Origin: Bacteroidota bacterium
GTDB taxonomy: Bacteria > Bacteroidota > Bacteroidia > UKL13-3
DNA: 37,423 nt
Assembly: GCA_947507965.1 (NCBI GenBank)
Contig: CANNQU010000032.1
Location: forward strand, 1 to 37,423
Reading direction: 5' to 3'
Both the position numbers and the translations under genes were made by a program. The notes under the pieces were generated by a model that ran no database searches, had not been told where the DNA came from, and was given only the letters and a program-made list of their open reading frames with translations. Below, in pieces: positions 22,114-29,839 of this stretch; the first letter of the stretch is position 1, and each line of letters opens with the position of its first letter.

Positions 22114-24885
22114 TTACACCACCACATTAACCATCTTCTTAGGAATAATAATGACTTTCTTGGGCGTTTTACCATCAAGCCATTTTAGGATGATATCATT
22201 GCTTAATACTTCTTGCTGGATTTCCTCGTTGGTGGCGGTAAGTGAAAAAATTAATTCGGTTCGTACCTTACCATTCACAGAAATTCCATAGGTAAATGAG
22301 TTTTCGGTTAGGTATTGTAAATCACAAACCGGGAACGGTTCATAGGCAATACTATGGCTATGATTCATGGCTGCCCATAGCTCTTCTGTAATATGAGGGG
22401 CAAAGGAGGATAATAAAATAATCAGAGGTTCTAAGATACCTTTTTTAGAACATTTTAAGTCCTGTAGTTCATTTACGGCAATCATAAAACTACTGATGCA
22501 CGTATTATAAGCGAGAACTTCAATATCACCTTCCACTTTCTTTATGGTACGATGAAGTATTTTTAGCTCGGCTAGGGTTACCGGTTCATCGTTAACCATT
22601 AATACTCCTTTATCATTATAAAACAACCTCCAGAGTTTACGTAAAAACCTCGACACCCCTTCAATACCTTTGGTATCCCAAGGCTTACTTAACTCCACAG
22701 GGCCTAAAAACATTTCATACATTCGAAAAGCATCGGCTCCATATTGTGCAACAATATCATCAGGATTGACTACATTATTAAGGCGTTTACTCATTTTCTC
22801 TACTTGAGTACCACAAATATATTTTCCATCTTCCAGGATAAACGTAGCGGTTTCAAATTCCTTACGCCAATGTTTTAACTTCGAAGTATCTAATTCCAAA
22901 CCATCACAGCAATTCACGTCAATATGAATTGGACTTACCTCATACTCGTGTTTTAAATTGAAGGAAACAAAGGTGTTTTCTTTGTTTTTAATGCGATAAA
23001 TAAATTTAGAAGTTCCTTGAATCATACCTTGATTCACCAGCTTTTTAAAGGGTTCATCAAAGTCAATAAATTTTAGGTCATGCAATACTTTCGTCCACAT
23101 ACGACTATATAACAAATGGCCTACGGCGTGCTCTGCACCACCAATATATAAATCTACTTGATTCCAATATCTTGTTGCCTCCTTACTTGCAAATTCATTG
23201 GAATTGTGTGCGTCCATATAACGCAGAAAATACCAGCTACTTCCTGCATAACCGGGCATTGTATTGGTTTCGCGTCGCAAGCCCTCCGGCAAATAAACCC
23301 AGTTGGGTATCGTGGCTAAAGGCCCTTCTCCGGTTCCGGTAGGTTTGTAGCTTTGCACGTCGGGCAAGGTTACCGGAAGTTCCAGTTCATTAATAAGGTA
23401 TGGTATATCATTTTTATAGACCACGGGAAATGGTTCTCCCCAATAGCGTTGGCGGCTAAAGCCAGCATCACGCATACGAAAGTTTACTTTGCGTTTGCCA
23501 TTTTTGCGTTTAACAATTTTATCTAAAGCAATGCTAAAGCCCGTTTTATAATCCAATCCATCTAAAAAATCGGAATTGATTAATTTGAAGTTTTTATTAG
23601 TATATGCCTTTTCACTAATATCTACCCCATCAAAAATATTAGTTATCGTAATATTAAAATGTTTAGCAAATGCATAGTCTCTATCATCACCACAAGGCAC
23701 AGCCATAATAGCTCCGGTGCCATAGCTAGCCAATACATATTCGGAAATCCATACCGGTACCTTTACTTTTGTAAATGGATGTTCAACAAACGCACCGGTA
23801 AAAACACCGGTAATTTTCTTTACTTCGGTTAACCGTTCTCTATCGCTGCGACTTTGAACATATTCGAGATACGTTTCAACCTCATGTTTTCGTTCGGCTG
23901 TTGTAATGTCATTCACCAAGGTATGCTCGGGGGCAATAACCATAAACGTTACACCAAATATGGTGTCGGGGCGTGTGGTAAAAACCCGAAGACCATCCGG
24001 ATGATCCAATAGTTTAAATTCAAGTTCAGCGCCTTCACTTCTACCGATCCAATTTCGTTGCATTTCTTTAAGTGAATCACTGAAATCAACCTTGTTTAAA
24101 CCTTCCAATAGTCGGTCGGCATATTCGCTGATACGTAAAAACCATTGACGCATTTCTTTTTTCACAACGATATGGCCTCCCCTCTCACTTAAACCATTGA
24201 TTACTTCATCGTTGGCAAGCACGGTACCGAGTGCTTCGCACCAATTTACCGATGAATACGCACTAAAAACCAAGCGATAATCCATTAAAATAATTTGTTT
24301 CGTTTCCTCATCGTAATTATTCCATTCGGATGCGGTGAATTTTCTATTATTTTCTTCCGGACATTCAATGGTATAATTACCCGTCTCACTAAAACTATCA
24401 ATTAATCGCTTCAACGGTTTTGCATGATTATCAATTCGATCGTAATAGCTATCAAAAAGCTGCATAAAAATCCATTGAGTCCATCGATAGAAATCGGGTG
24501 ATGCCGTGCTTATTTCTTTATCCCAATCGTAGCTAAAGCCTATGTTTTTAAGTTGTTGTTTATAGCGGTCAATATTTTTCTGAGTAGATATAGAAGGATG
24601 AGTACCTGTTTCGATAGCATACTGCTCGGCAGGCAGGCCAAAGGCATCGAAGCCCATCGGGTGTAATACATTAAACCCTTTGTGCCTTTTATAGCGCGAC
24701 ATAATATCACTGGCGATATAACCCAGTGGATGACCTACATGCAGGCCGGCACCACTAGGATAAGGAAACATATCCAATGCATAATACTTTGGTTTGGACG
24801 GATCAATTTGGGTTTCGAACGTTTTATTTTCGAACCAATATTGCTGCCATTTGGCATCCAGTAGGTTAAAGTTGAAATCGATCAT
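22114..24885 (-). CDS. leuS: Leucyl-tRNA synthetase
   Basis: LeuRS charges tRNA-Leu with leucine and edits mischarged products in the cytoplasm. The 923-residue protein is somewhat longer than E. coli LeuRS (860). The HIGH-type motif is HVGH at 49-52 (YPSGAGLHVGHPLGY). The editing domain follows, with TTRPDTIFGVTFMV-like sequence. The second signature reads KMSKR at 697-701, where most LeuRS have KMSKS. The extra length comes from insertions around residues 163-205 and about 630-690, the latter just before KMSKR, as in other Bacteroidota LeuRS as far as I recall. The anticodon-binding and C-terminal domains are intact. It is transcribed separately from the small membrane-protein gene upstream, because a terminator lies between them. 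Confidence 0.97.
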   Translation of the reverse strand: MIDFNFNLLDAKWQQYWFENKTFETQIDPSKPKYYALDMFPYPSGAGLHVGHPLGYIASDIMSRYKRHKGFNVLHPMGFDAFGLPAEQYAIETGTHPSISTQKNIDRYKQQLKNIGFSYDWDKEISTASPDFYRWTQWIFMQLFDSYYDRIDNHAKPLKRLIDSFSETGNYTIECPEENNRKFTASEWNNYDEETKQIILMDYRLVFSAYSSVNWCEALGTVLANDEVINGLSERGGHIVVKKEMRQWFLRISEYADRLLEGLNKVDFSDSLKEMQRNWIGRSEGAELEFKLLDHPDGLRVFTTRPDTIFGVTFMVIAPEHTLVNDITTAERKHEVETYLEYVQSRSDRERLTEVKKITGVFTGAFVEHPFTKVKVPVWISEYVLASYGTGAIMAVPCGDDRDYAFAKHFNITITNIFDGVDISEKAYTNKNFKLINSDFLDGLDYKTGFSIALDKIVKRKNGKRKVNFRMRDAGFSRQRYWGEPFPVVYKNDIPYLINELELPVTLPDVQSYKPTGTGEGPLATIPNWVYLPEGLRRETNTMPGYAGSSWYFLRYMDAHNSNEFASKEATRYWNQVDLYIGGAEHAVGHLLYSRMWTKVLHDLKFIDFDEPFKKLVNQGMIQGTSKFIYRIKNKENTFVSFNLKHEYEVSPIHIDVNCCDGLELDTSKLKHWRKEFETATFILEDGKYICGTQVEKMSKRLNNVVNPDDIVAQYGADAFRMYEMFLGPVELSKPWDTKGIEGVSRFLRKLWRLFYNDKGVLMVNDEPVTLAELKILHRTIKKVEGDIEVLAYNTCISSFMIAVNELQDLKCSKKGILEPLIILLSSFAPHITEELWAAMNHSHSIAYEPFPVCDLQYLTENSFTYGISVNGKVRTELIFSLTATNEEIQQEVLSNDIILKWLDGKTPKKVIIIPKKMVNVVV

Positions 24886-24937: not shown

Positions 24938-24969
24938 GAAGCCGCAACAACGAAGGCTGATGCGGCTTT
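24938..24969 (-). terminator. Intrinsic terminator after the 55-residue membrane-protein gene
   Basis: On the minus strand an eight-pair GC-rich stem (AAGCCGCA with TGCGGCTT) with a 14-base loop is followed by CTGTTTTTG. It lies about 65 bases after the stop of the small gene and about 50 bases before the leuS start, so it separates the two transcripts. Confidence 0.65.
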
Positions 24970-25034: not shown

Positions 25035-25202
25035 TTATAACCAGTCGTTCGCCAAAGCAAAAGCAGTAACTAAAATTGGAAGTGGTAACCAAAATGCTTC
25101 AGGACGGTAGATGGTAATTAAAACCATTGCCACCAAACTAACGATGAAGATAATCCAATATTTTCCTTTTGATTTGTGCTGTGTATTTGATGATTCAGTC
25201 AT
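25035..25202 (-). CDS. 55-residue membrane protein of unknown function
   Basis: An open frame runs from ATG at 25202 to TAA at 25035. The protein starts MTESSNTQHKSKGKYW, a polar, basic N-terminus of about 15 residues. Two hydrophobic segments follow, about 16-32 (WIIFIVSLVAMVLITIY) and 37-51 (FWLPLPILVTAFAL), with YRPEA between them, and it ends NDWL. I do not recognise a family. A perfect TAnnTTTG box ends seven bases upstream, with a TTG 16 bases before that box. A terminator follows downstream. Promoter, frame and terminator together make this a believable gene rather than chance. An overlapping plus-strand frame at 25111-25344 has no such support. The function is unknown. Confidence 0.72.
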   Translation of the reverse strand: MTESSNTQHKSKGKYWIIFIVSLVAMVLITIYRPEAFWLPLPILVTAFALANDWL

Positions 25203-25209
25203 AGAGATG

Positions 25210-25217
25210 CAAAAATA
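25210..25217 (-). promoter_or_regulatory. Promoter (-7 box and possible -33 TTG) of the 55-residue membrane-protein gene
   Basis: On the minus strand TATTTTTG, followed by C, is an exact -7 match ending seven bases before the ATG. A TTG at 25234-25236 (minus strand) is 16 bases upstream of the box, near the usual spacing for the Bacteroidota -33 element. It is the best two-part promoter candidate in the window. Confidence 0.55.
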
Positions 25218-25340: not shown

Positions 25341-26165
25341 TTGACAACATTAAACAATATAAAAGACTACCTAAAGTACTTGTTGAAGTCGCATAACCTT
25401 CATGGAGTGCATTCTCCGTTTATTTATGACCTTAATGTCAACGTATTAAATCAACGAGTTGCAGGAACAGAACTTTCTAACGTTAATAAGTACAGAAACA
25501 CTTTACAGCATCAAAAGGATTTTATTGATGTGGAGGATTTAGGGCGTGGCTCGCATCAATTAAGGAATAGGAAAAGGTTAATCTCTGCTATTTACGCTAC
25601 GGCCAGCTGCAACAAACGAATGGGAGAAGTTTTATTTCAACTCATCCATCATTATGATTATAAAAATATATTAGAACTTGGTACTTGCCTTGGCGTTGGC
25701 ACTGCCTATATAGAAAGTGCTCTTCGTGATGAAGTTAATGCTCAAATTACCACCATCGAAGGGAGTTCATCCTTACATGATTTTACACAAACAATATTCC
25801 ACTCGGTTTTTAAAGAAAACAAGGTTCATTTTGTATGCGGAAATTTCGATTCTGTACTCCAACAGGTGGTGTCAAACATTGCTCCAATCGATTTGGTGCT
25901 CATCGATGGGAATCATACCTATGCTGCCACGATTCATTATTTTAATATACTCGTTAGCCACCTTAACCATACTAGTGTGCTTATTTTCGACGATATTTAT
26001 TGGAGTAGTGAAATGAAACGAGCTTGGCAAGAAATAAAACTTCACCCGGAAGTAACATGCACTGTTGATTTGTTTCGCTGGGGTCTTGTATTTTTTCGGA
26101 AGGAAATGCAAAAGGAACATTTCACGTTGCGCTTTGATGGCTTTTTACAAGCTCATATAGGTTAA
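25341..26165 (+). CDS. Class I SAM-dependent methyltransferase
   Basis: The 274-residue protein has a Rossmann-type SAM-binding domain. Motif I is ILELGTCLGVGTAYIE (about 110-125), the acidic residue after strand 2 is in ITTIEGS, and LVLIDGNHTYAAT and VLIFDDIYWS mark later strands. The pattern is like O-methyltransferases of the Methyltransf_24/CmcI-like type, with acidic residues that could hold a metal. The N-terminal part, with HGVHSPFIYD at 21-30, is common in Bacteroidota relatives. The substrate is unknown. The frame begins with TTG at 25341. No ATG is available between the upstream stop and the conserved region. It converges on and overlaps the end of the nucleotide-sugar dehydrogenase gene by 21 bases. 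Proximity to polysaccharide genes is suggestive only, since it is on the other strand. Confidence 0.85.
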   Translation: MTTLNNIKDYLKYLLKSHNLHGVHSPFIYDLNVNVLNQRVAGTELSNVNKYRNTLQHQKDFIDVEDLGRGSHQLRNRKRLISAIYATASCNKRMGEVLFQLIHHYDYKNILELGTCLGVGTAYIESALRDEVNAQITTIEGSSSLHDFTQTIFHSVFKENKVHFVCGNFDSVLQQVVSNIAPIDLVLIDGNHTYAATIHYFNILVSHLNHTSVLIFDDIYWSSEMKRAWQEIKLHPEVTCTVDLFRWGLVFFRKEMQKEHFTLRFDGFLQAHIG

Positions 26166-27434
26166 GGAGGTTATCTTGTCTTTGTACATCCCTTTCACAT
26201 CGTAAAGAACCGCTTGTTTTTTGGATATGCTTTTAAAATAAGCGTCACCAAGATTTCGATATTCATCATGCGACACGGCCACAATAATAGCATCATAATT
26301 TTTAGTGATTTTAGCAGCTAACGTAAAGCCATATTCTCGAAATATTTCCTCACTATTAGCCCTAGGATCAACCACTTCTACATTAACATGGAAATTTTTA
26401 AGTTCATTTATAATATCCACCACTTTACTGTTTCGTATATCTGCCACATTTTCTTTGAAGGTTGCTCCCATTACCAATACCTTAGCTTTCTTAAGCGAAA
26501 TATCATGGTCAATCATCTCCTTTATTACTTCCTTGGCAATATAAGAACCAACGCCATCGTTGATATACCTACCTGCTAAGATAACCTTGCAATGGTATCC
26601 TATTTCACTCGCTTTATGGGTCAGGTAATAGGGGTCAACACCGATACAATGACCACCGACTAAACCGGGTTTAAATTTCAAAAAATTCCATTTGGTAGAG
26701 GCTGCTTCAAGCACATCAAACGTGTTGATATTCATTTTATTGAAAATAATGGAGAGCTCATTCATCAAAGCAATATTTAAATCGCGTTGGGTATTCTCAA
26801 TTATTTTTGCACTTTCCGCTACTTTAATGGTCGGGGCTTTATGAATCCCGGCAGTTATTATACTACCATAAACATCGGCAATAGTATCTAATGATTCTTG
26901 ATCGCAGCCAGAAACAATTTTTAGAATCTTAGTCAAGGTATGCTCTTTGTCGCCTGGATTAATTCGTTCGGGAGAATATCCCACCTTAAAATCTCGTATA
27001 AATTTCAAGCCCGATTCCTTTTCCAATACAGGAATGCAATCATCCTCTGTACAACCTGGATATACCGTAGATTCGAATACGACATAATCGCCTTTTTTCA
27101 ATGCTTTACCTACCGAAACACTAGCTCCCAGTAAGGGCCCTAAATCGGGACGATTATGGTTGTCGATAGGCGTAGGAACGGCCACTATGAAAAAGTTTGC
27201 TTTCCTTAGTTCATCAATTTTGTCGGTAAAAAAAATATCACATCCTTCAAAATCTTTACTCTCCAGCTCTTCACTGGGGTCGGTTTTGGTACGCATTAAC
27301 TTTAACCGATCAATATTTATATCGAATCCAATGACACTAAATTTCTTAGCAAATTCCAACGCGATGGGTAAGCCAACATAGCCTAATCCAATTACTGCGA
27401 TCTTTTTTTTCTTATTTATTATACCCTTAATCAT
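26145..27434 (-). CDS. Nucleotide-sugar dehydrogenase (WbpO/TviB type)
   Basis: The enzyme oxidises C6 of a UDP-sugar twice with NAD+, giving a uronic acid for surface polysaccharide. The 429-residue protein shows the N-terminal NAD-binding loop VIGLGYVGLP (about 15-24) and VPTPID. The central domain carries EFVESTVYPG-like and GYSPERINPGD motifs. The catalytic Cys263 is in VGGHCIGVDPYYLT, followed by the C-terminal UDP-binding domain. PYYLT after the cysteine motif and overall similarity favour the UDP-N-acetylhexosamine (WbpO/TviB) branch over UDP-glucose dehydrogenase, but the substrate is not certain. Its ATG overlaps the wzc stop codon by one base (TAATG), so the two are translationally coupled. 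It is the last gene of the wza-wzc operon. Confidence 0.93.
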   Translation of the reverse strand: MIKGIINKKKKIAVIGLGYVGLPIALEFAKKFSVIGFDINIDRLKLMRTKTDPSEELESKDFEGCDIFFTDKIDELRKANFFIVAVPTPIDNHNRPDLGPLLGASVSVGKALKKGDYVVFESTVYPGCTEDDCIPVLEKESGLKFIRDFKVGYSPERINPGDKEHTLTKILKIVSGCDQESLDTIADVYGSIITAGIHKAPTIKVAESAKIIENTQRDLNIALMNELSIIFNKMNINTFDVLEAASTKWNFLKFKPGLVGGHCIGVDPYYLTHKASEIGYHCKVILAGRYINDGVGSYIAKEVIKEMIDHDISLKKAKVLVMGATFKENVADIRNSKVVDIINELKNFHVNVEVVDPRANSEEIFREYGFTLAAKITKNYDAIIVAVSHDEYRNLGDAYFKSISKKQAVLYDVKGMYKDKITSLTYMSL

Positions 27435-29839
27435 TATTTCCGTCTTCGAAAAAACACATTCAATATTCGACTAAAAAAACGCTCCTTCTTCTGTTCTTCA
27501 TAATATCCATATCCATTACCGTACCCATAGCCATAACCATAGCCATAGCCATAACCGTAGCCATAACCATATTTGCTATTACTCAGGTTGGAGTCGTTAA
27601 CTAGCAAGCAAATATTCTTAATATTATTATCATTGGTATGAAGTTCGTTAATCGAATTTACAAAGAGCAAGCGGGAATAATTTTCACGAATCACATAAAT
27701 ATTAACATCAGCATGCTTCATCAGAAGCAGTCCATCGGTTACTAAACCAATTGGAGCCGTATCAATGATGATATAATCATAGATTGTTTTCAATTTCTCT
27801 AAGAGTAAGATTAAGTTATCACTCATTAATAATTCCGACGGATTGGGAGGTATAGGGCCCGAAGTGATAATGTCAAGGTTATGTAAATCGGTTTTTTGAA
27901 TAATCTGCTCGGCCGTTGCTTTGGATATTAAAAAAGTACTAACTCCTACGTCATTGTTCAAACTAAATTCATCAAAGATTTTAGGCTTACGCATATCCAT
28001 ACCAATAAGCACTATTTTTTTATCACTTAAACTTATTACAGACGATAGATTCATGGCCACGAAGGTTTTGCCTTCGCCACTAATGGTGGAGGTAACTACA
28101 ATTACTTTCGGACCATCGCTCCTGGTGAAGTATTGCAAGTTGGTTCGAACACTTCTAAATGCTTCACTGATTTGCGATTTGGGATTATCGCGTACCACCA
28201 ACTTGCTGGGTTTATGACTATGACTAATAACGCCGATAACCGGAACATTCGTGCTTTTCTCCAATTGTATCTTACTTCTCAGCTTGTCATCAAAATACTG
28301 TCGGAAAACAATGATCAATAATGGTATCGTAAGTCCGATAAAAAAAGCAATAATCAGATTGTTTTTCTTATCGGGTGAAACTAATCCATTTAAAACAGCT
28401 TCATCCAATACCTTATTATCCGATATGGTACCTGCTTTTGCAATACCTATTTCGGCTCTTTTCTCCAGCAGGTAGGTGTATATTTTTTCATTTAAAGATA
28501 GTTTCCTGTTTAAATCCAGAAATCTTCGTTCGGCTTCCGGAATACGGCTTAATGAAAACAAAAACTTCTGACGAAGGCTTTCCATGCTACTCAGTTGTAT
28601 TTGATAGTTTTTGCGCAAATTAAACATTCCATTGAGCAAGGTTGCACGTACTCCTTCTATCTCTTGTTCAAGGGTAATAATTTGAGGGTTGGTCGATTTA
28701 CTTTCATAGAGTAATCGCTGTCGTTGGGTTTGAAGTTCGTGTAACTTTTGTATCTGTAATGAAATCGTAGCATCTCCAATGCCCATCGTGGAAGGTGATA
28801 AATTGGTAAGATCTTTATTGGCAAAGATATAATCGTAAATGAACGATAGGATTTTAAGCTCCGTCTCCAACTTGTATTTTTCCGTTTCAATGGCTTCCAC
28901 CTGCGTGGATAATGACTTCGACTCTTCGCTTAAATTAACCACCCCCTTTATTTCGCGAAAACGCTGAAAGCTATCCTGACCTATCGTGAGCAATGCTGAA
29001 ATGCTTTTTACCTGTTCATCAATAAAACGAACGGTATTGTTGGCAATGAGGTTTTTTTCATTAATGCCATAGTCGATATAGGTTTGACAAACCATATTAA
29101 TAACGTCGATACCACGTTGTGGGATTGGATCATTTATCTGAAGCTCAAAAATGCTTGTTTCTTTTACGATACTGATATGTACTGCCGATTTATAATGGTT
29201 TACTAATGATTGGGAATTGTTGTACTTAAATTTAAAATTTCTTTGCCCTTCGGTTTTGAAACTGCGATGGGTAACGGCATCATTCTTGAATATTTTTATG
29301 TCGAAATATCTTGTTTTGATCGTCTCACCAAATTTATACACCATAAAATCCTTCTCATATTTAAGTTCGAAGGTTTCATCGTCGATTAAGTTGAAGAAGA
29401 ACCATTTTCCATAATAACTGCTATCCAATAATTGGCCAGATACAACGAAAGAATTTTCTTTATATATTTCCGCTTCTTGAACTCGCCCAATAGCAATATA
29501 GGTGATATCTAAATCAAGCTTGCTTATTACATCCTTGTATAAGGTACGCGACCGAAGCACATTTAATTCGGTAGTAAGAGGTCTTTTCGCGTCGGGTAAG
29601 CCTAAATCTTCTTTTATCACATCGGATGCACTTCGGGAGGCCGCTTCCTTTAATAATAACGTGCCACTGATGCTATATTGATTGATGGAATAGTAGTTCA
29701 CCAAATAACCAATGGTAAGAGACACGGTGATAAAAGATACGAACATCAACCAATTACCTTTGATCAAGTTTATTAACGGACGAATATTATCTTTTTCCTC
29801 AACGATGCTTTTCGGAATATCTTTTTCTTCTTCGAACAT
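27434..29839 (-). CDS. Wzc-like polysaccharide co-polymerase / tyrosine autokinase
   Basis: This inner-membrane protein controls length and export of surface polysaccharide and phosphorylates its own tyrosines. The 801-residue protein has a Wzz domain with a first membrane segment near 32-52, a long periplasmic coiled-coil region (about 270-470, with GNVR-type sequence before the second membrane segment), and a second membrane segment near 500. The cytoplasmic BY-kinase domain follows. Its Walker A is SGEGKT with Lys591, Walker A' is VLIGMDMRKP and Walker B is DYIIIDTAP. The tail holds 12 tyrosines within residues 757-780, mostly alternating with glycine, and ends in a basic stretch (FFRRRK). 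The gene lies two bases after wza and overlaps the dehydrogenase start by one base. Confidence 0.95.
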   Translation of the reverse strand: MFEEEKDIPKSIVEEKDNIRPLINLIKGNWLMFVSFITVSLTIGYLVNYYSINQYSISGTLLLKEAASRSASDVIKEDLGLPDAKRPLTTELNVLRSRTLYKDVISKLDLDITYIAIGRVQEAEIYKENSFVVSGQLLDSSYYGKWFFFNLIDDETFELKYEKDFMVYKFGETIKTRYFDIKIFKNDAVTHRSFKTEGQRNFKFKYNNSQSLVNHYKSAVHISIVKETSIFELQINDPIPQRGIDVINMVCQTYIDYGINEKNLIANNTVRFIDEQVKSISALLTIGQDSFQRFREIKGVVNLSEESKSLSTQVEAIETEKYKLETELKILSFIYDYIFANKDLTNLSPSTMGIGDATISLQIQKLHELQTQRQRLLYESKSTNPQIITLEQEIEGVRATLLNGMFNLRKNYQIQLSSMESLRQKFLFSLSRIPEAERRFLDLNRKLSLNEKIYTYLLEKRAEIGIAKAGTISDNKVLDEAVLNGLVSPDKKNNLIIAFFIGLTIPLLIIVFRQYFDDKLRSKIQLEKSTNVPVIGVISHSHKPSKLVVRDNPKSQISEAFRSVRTNLQYFTRSDGPKVIVVTSTISGEGKTFVAMNLSSVISLSDKKIVLIGMDMRKPKIFDEFSLNNDVGVSTFLISKATAEQIIQKTDLHNLDIITSGPIPPNPSELLMSDNLILLLEKLKTIYDYIIIDTAPIGLVTDGLLLMKHADVNIYVIRENYSRLLFVNSINELHTNDNNIKNICLLVNDSNLSNSKYGYGYGYGYGYGYGYGYGNGYGYYEEQKKERFFSRILNVFFRRRK
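27500..27571 (-). repeat. Hexanucleotide (GGN TAY) tandem repeat coding the Wzc tyrosine tail
   Basis: About 72 bases made of imperfect six-base units that encode nine Tyr-Gly pairs, then Asn-Gly, Tyr-Gly and Tyr-Tyr. Units differ at third positions (TAT/TAC, GGT/GGC/GGG), so the repeat is not perfect at DNA level. Any gain or loss of units would stay in frame and change only the number of tyrosines. Confidence 0.85.

Follow-up and report, generated by a model that had tools for sequence, protein, structure and literature searches.

A conserved 55-residue predicted membrane protein of Bacteroidia, encoded by a small gene with its own putative promoter

We describe a small gene on the minus strand of the window, by which we mean the whole 37,423-nucleotide stretch of DNA analysed here. 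Judged by comparison with its homologues, this 55-codon frame is a gene and not a chance ORF, and it is under purifying selection. The initial annotation had proposed that the frame encodes a small membrane protein from a promoter of its own. This proposal is supported by a conserved -7 box, two predicted helices, the existence of homologues, the signature of purifying selection and the lack of any match in the family libraries.

The gene and its protein

The frame lies, as first noted, in the 455-base gap between leuS and a methyltransferase-like gene (Table 1), and its translation is MTESSNTQHKSKGKYWIIFIVSLVAMVLITIYRPEAFWLPLPILVTAFALANDWL. The methyltransferase-like gene opens with TTG in the window, and the relative in genome G004 has ATG at the corresponding place. 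The window also encodes a Wzc-like chain-length/tyrosine-kinase protein, the C-terminus of which is a long Gly-Tyr repeat (GYGYGYGYGYGYGYGYGYGNGYGYY).

Table 1. Positions of the small gene, its associated features and the surrounding genes in the window
Feature	Position	Strand	Basis or remark
Small membrane-protein gene, 55 aa	25035..25202	-	ATG 25202-25200, stop 25037-25035; homologues, dN/dS
Conserved Tyr15-Trp16, start of helix 1	25155..25160	-	Trp16 in 79/80 members, column statistics
Helix 2 signature, residues 41-53	25044..25082	-	Column statistics, 80 members; ends two residues before the C-terminus
Sigma-A -7 box, TATTTTTG	25210..25217	-	Seven bases before ATG; invariant TAYTTTTG in the genus
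Predicted leader, about 3 nt	25203..25210	-	Position of the -7 box
Hairpin, probably an intrinsic terminator, alternatively part of a leuS leader	24939..24968	-	-17.7 kcal/mol, z -4.4
leuS	22114..24885	-	Start 24885; one flank of the small gene
Methyltransferase-like gene	25341..26165	+	TTG start; other flank of the small gene
Wzc-like protein	27434..29839	-	

The gene is present as one copy in all five sampled species of the genus, the relatives being uncultured Bacteroidetes MAGs. Among these relatives, the proteins share 76-93% amino-acid identity with that of the window and NG86 dN/dS is 0.08-0.17, while third positions account for 37 of the 62 variable sites in the genus alignment (binomial P 2e-5). 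In the comparison with G002, 23 nucleotide changes yield 4 amino-acid changes where random placement predicts 15.6; over the genus relatives, 4, 12 and 13 amino-acid changes are observed against 15.6, 26.1 and 25.6 expected. The start codon, the -7 box and the downstream hairpin are kept in the genus alignment; the flanks drift. The initial annotation had looked to homologues and to an excess of synonymous change for support, and both were found, with full-length matches in about 200 genomes and amino-acid changes well under the random expectation.

The shortness of the frame and the weak terminator tail in the window would suit a chance ORF without a product. Given that the protein is conserved, that synonymous changes are in excess and that nearly all other frames are interrupted by stops, we regard the probability of such an ORF as negligible, and the sequence comparison already refutes it.

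Two hydrophobic segments had been read from the sequence, and both are recovered here: Kyte-Doolittle peaks fall around residues 15-33 and 36-52 of the window protein, and AlphaFold2 places helices at 12-32 and 41-51 with moderate confidence (mean pLDDT 74, pTM 0.46). Family members are 49-60 residues long and share a gapless 48-residue core (residues 8-55; 80 members), which runs from a Lys-rich N-terminus through helix 1 (YWxxFxxS) and a short turn to helix 2 (FWLxLPxxxTxFVxAMDxx). In helix 2, Pro42 is found in all 80 members, Ala51 in 75, Leu41 in 74, Thr46 in 73 and Asp53 in 69; the stop codon stands two residues past this conserved Asp, and the C-terminal end is fixed. Lys and Arg residues average 2.4 in the N-terminal tail versus 0.3 in the turn (80 members). 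Since they concentrate in the tail, the positive-inside rule suggests that the N-terminus is inside, which with two helices would place the C-terminus inside as well. With segments of spanning length and a positive-inside charge pattern both present, the product is predicted to be a small inner-membrane protein.

Promoter box, leader and downstream hairpin

The TAnnTTTG box that the initial annotation placed seven bases upstream of the gene is invariant in the genus, reading TAYTTTTG in all five members. In the window's genome, of which 437 kb was sampled as background for box and hairpin alike, 3.3% of random 60-mers contain such a box. Across the wider family, TAnnTTTG is found within 60 nucleotides upstream of the ATG in 62-63 of 78 loci (about 80-81%), compared with about 4% in shuffled upstream sequences. 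As the box persists in this proportion of loci despite differing neighbours, the simplest reading is that the gene is an autonomous transcription unit. A TTG at near-normal spacing had also been claimed, but no TTG or TTTG at -33 is common to the five genus members, and an upstream promoter element is therefore unsupported.

As the -7 box occupies positions -12 to -5 (PMC9723704), transcription is predicted to start at about 25205, so that the mRNA of the window gene would be nearly leaderless. At the loci of one other family, f35, the box lies mostly about 23 nucleotides upstream, giving a leader of about 11 nucleotides. Two published Bacteroidota maps (PMC7366714, PMC9723704) put very short leaders at just 3.7-5.5%.

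On the downstream side, a hairpin with a T-run had been proposed to separate the gene from leuS. The hairpin itself stands: both of its arms are letter-identical in the five species of the genus, whereas the 4-nucleotide loop and the flanks vary, and it is single copy in the 437 kb of genome. The T-run does not, as it is interrupted in the window (CTGTTTTTG) and leaves a weak tail, which is why a simple terminator scan missed the hairpin. We consider an intrinsic terminator probable. A plain terminator requires pairing, not one particular sequence, and synonymous divergence among these five species reaches above 1; the arms thus appear more conserved than a plain terminator would need, and a leuS leader element is possible.

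Distribution, neighbours and search for relatives

With one distant member added, the profile recovered homologues in other Bacteroidia families at E-values to 1e-19 and below. A 48-member profile gave 23 positives among 395 Bacteroidia genomes, all of them full-length small frames, and these came from six families only: that of the window, through its genus, f35, f63, f53, f60 and a single f45 genome. In f35, 108 of 148 genomes score, about 107 with a full-length match, and twenty f35 genomes without a match stayed negative with a stronger profile. In f63, 99 of 120 genomes score, one of them with a fragment at a contig end, which leaves 98 of 120. Weak partial extra matches aside, there is one copy per genome. 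About a quarter of the genomes of f35 and f63 have no detectable copy, so the gene is not essential everywhere. Family labels map onto the tree with 6 changes, the minimum attainable, although its 51 columns resolve few deep forks; because the tree tracks taxonomy, inheritance appears to be mainly vertical.

Among 64 genomes of the window's own GTDB family, the gene is confined to one genus, genome G086 excepted. We rejected G086 as evidence for a second genus: its copy (L031 1492-1641; L094, G086:C112) lies on a 5.8-kb contig, nests inside f35 in the tree and adjoins an f35-type gene, and therefore probably entered through a binning error or by transfer. A similar case is the f45 match, which comes from a genome that is 57% complete. 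Low-scoring matches in the window's family beyond the genus were set aside as out of frame or due to chance (atpG overlaps, transporter-length frames).

The neighbours, whose products we named by visual inspection of the sequences, are constant inside each lineage and differ between lineages. Conservation next to leuS had been suggested as a check and holds inside the genus, where leuS always lies downstream of the gene at about 110-160 bases; elsewhere it does not. In f35 the gene stands beside malQ or a pyrophosphatase, in f53 beside a PD40/OmpA-type gene and ilvE, and in f63 beside a 3-hydroxyacyl-CoA dehydrogenase or GHMP-type kinase and an Mfd-like gene. Neighbour clustering across the lineages found no common partner, which argues that the gene is not a fixed part of an operon. 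This arrangement also bears on whether the frame might be a leuS leader peptide with an attenuator, whose translation would serve solely to regulate leuS by way of the hairpin. The constant spacing in the genus, the invariant arms in between and the failure to see a TAnnTTTG box from the hairpin to leuS in the five-genome alignment would all fit, but the linkage breaks down in the other families. Since the protein is conserved there beside other genes, it is the peptide itself that is kept, and we consider a leader peptide improbable.

The initial annotation did not recognise the family, and our searches agree with it. At the curated cut-off, Pfam and NCBIfam gave no family for the window protein and, for other members, only scattered matches with E above 0.006; there was no Pfam or NCBIfam match to CydX, AcrZ, KdpF, NapE/TorE, SecE, SecG, ATP synthase c or holins. 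PHROGs gave no coherent family match, and sequence and fold searches of the PDB and searches of Rfam and plasmids gave no relative. A Foldseek search with the AlphaFold2 model returned generic helical hairpins only (E above 2), and a literature search found no published description of the family. A holin of phage origin or a type I toxin, that is, a small hydrophobic killer peptide, would have a fitting size and hydrophobicity. However, in addition to the PHROGs result, 2.9 million viral contigs held no relative (scanned with one close query, as the family profile is too diverse for the scan), and the gene's single copy, its vertical descent and its promoter box of housekeeping type also speak against such a protein, which we regard as very improbable. 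The leader-peptide, holin or toxin and chance-ORF readings are all contradicted by the distribution of the gene.

Possible roles of the protein

The reading that we rank as most likely, with a probability of roughly 40%, is that the gene is monocistronic and sigma-A-driven and encodes an inner-membrane hairpin that serves a larger membrane complex as a constitutive accessory subunit. Under this model, sigma-A would direct a monocistronic mRNA for a 55-residue two-helix hairpin, with the Lys-rich N-terminus and the C-terminus predicted to be cytoplasmic and the turn of 4-6 residues periplasmic. The helices would then dock on a larger inner-membrane complex, in a constitutive accessory role that may be stabilising or regulatory, and the Pro-containing helix 2 with its terminal Asp may form the contact surface. 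As no partner or functional neighbour was found, the accessory role rests on analogy. The closest known analogues, CydX, AcrZ, KdpF and TorE/NapE, are mostly single-helix proteins and are often encoded near their partner. The window protein differs from them in that it has a second helix and lacks a constant neighbour, and no member of its family matches their Pfam models. It resembles them in being short, hydrophobic and free of any enzymatic motif; these four act by docking on a large membrane complex, and where the role of a small conserved membrane protein has been established, it is often to stabilise or adjust such a complex (PMC6134056, PMC7267776, PMC6005532).

ATP synthase subunit c and other hairpins offer a second comparison, since they too consist of two antiparallel membrane helices and c-ring hairpins are the best Foldseek matches. 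They lend some appeal to a hairpin that self-assembles into a homo-oligomer and is itself active, for example as an ion or proton leak or in modulating lipids or envelope stress. An autonomous gene with no fixed partner nearby would suit self-assembly, as would the polar Thr46 and the Pro inside helix 2 and the Asp at its end. Nevertheless, at E above 2 the fold matches are insignificant and reflect only a helical hairpin, and the window protein is about 15-30 residues shorter than subunit c, lacks its mid-helix 2 carboxylate, has no sequence relation to it and has no Pfam ATP-synthase c match. We therefore consider self-assembly unlikely, though second in rank to the accessory subunit; the remaining probability falls to roles not listed here.

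Conserved families that lack annotation are not in themselves unusual, since only 6.1% of the families in a microbial small-protein catalogue receive a conserved-domain annotation (PMC11364881). Indeed, the GMSC (PMC11364881) and FESNov (PMC10849945) families likewise include conserved, clade-restricted and unannotated small membrane proteins. The distinctive points here are a broad distribution at one copy per genome, a length free of gaps and a promoter that stays with the gene from one context to the next. The result is a near-core bacterial gene outside the curated family libraries, with one copy in most members of f35 and f63. Tentatively, and with less confidence than we place in the accessory role, we suggest that it may be a shared derived feature of several Bacteroidia families and a lineage-specific, previously uncharacterised subunit of a core complex that serves the envelope or respiration. 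If it is a true subunit of a core membrane complex, then one of its components is missing from how that complex is currently modelled in these bacteria. Furthermore, with the present profile, annotators could assign a name to the family throughout the class.
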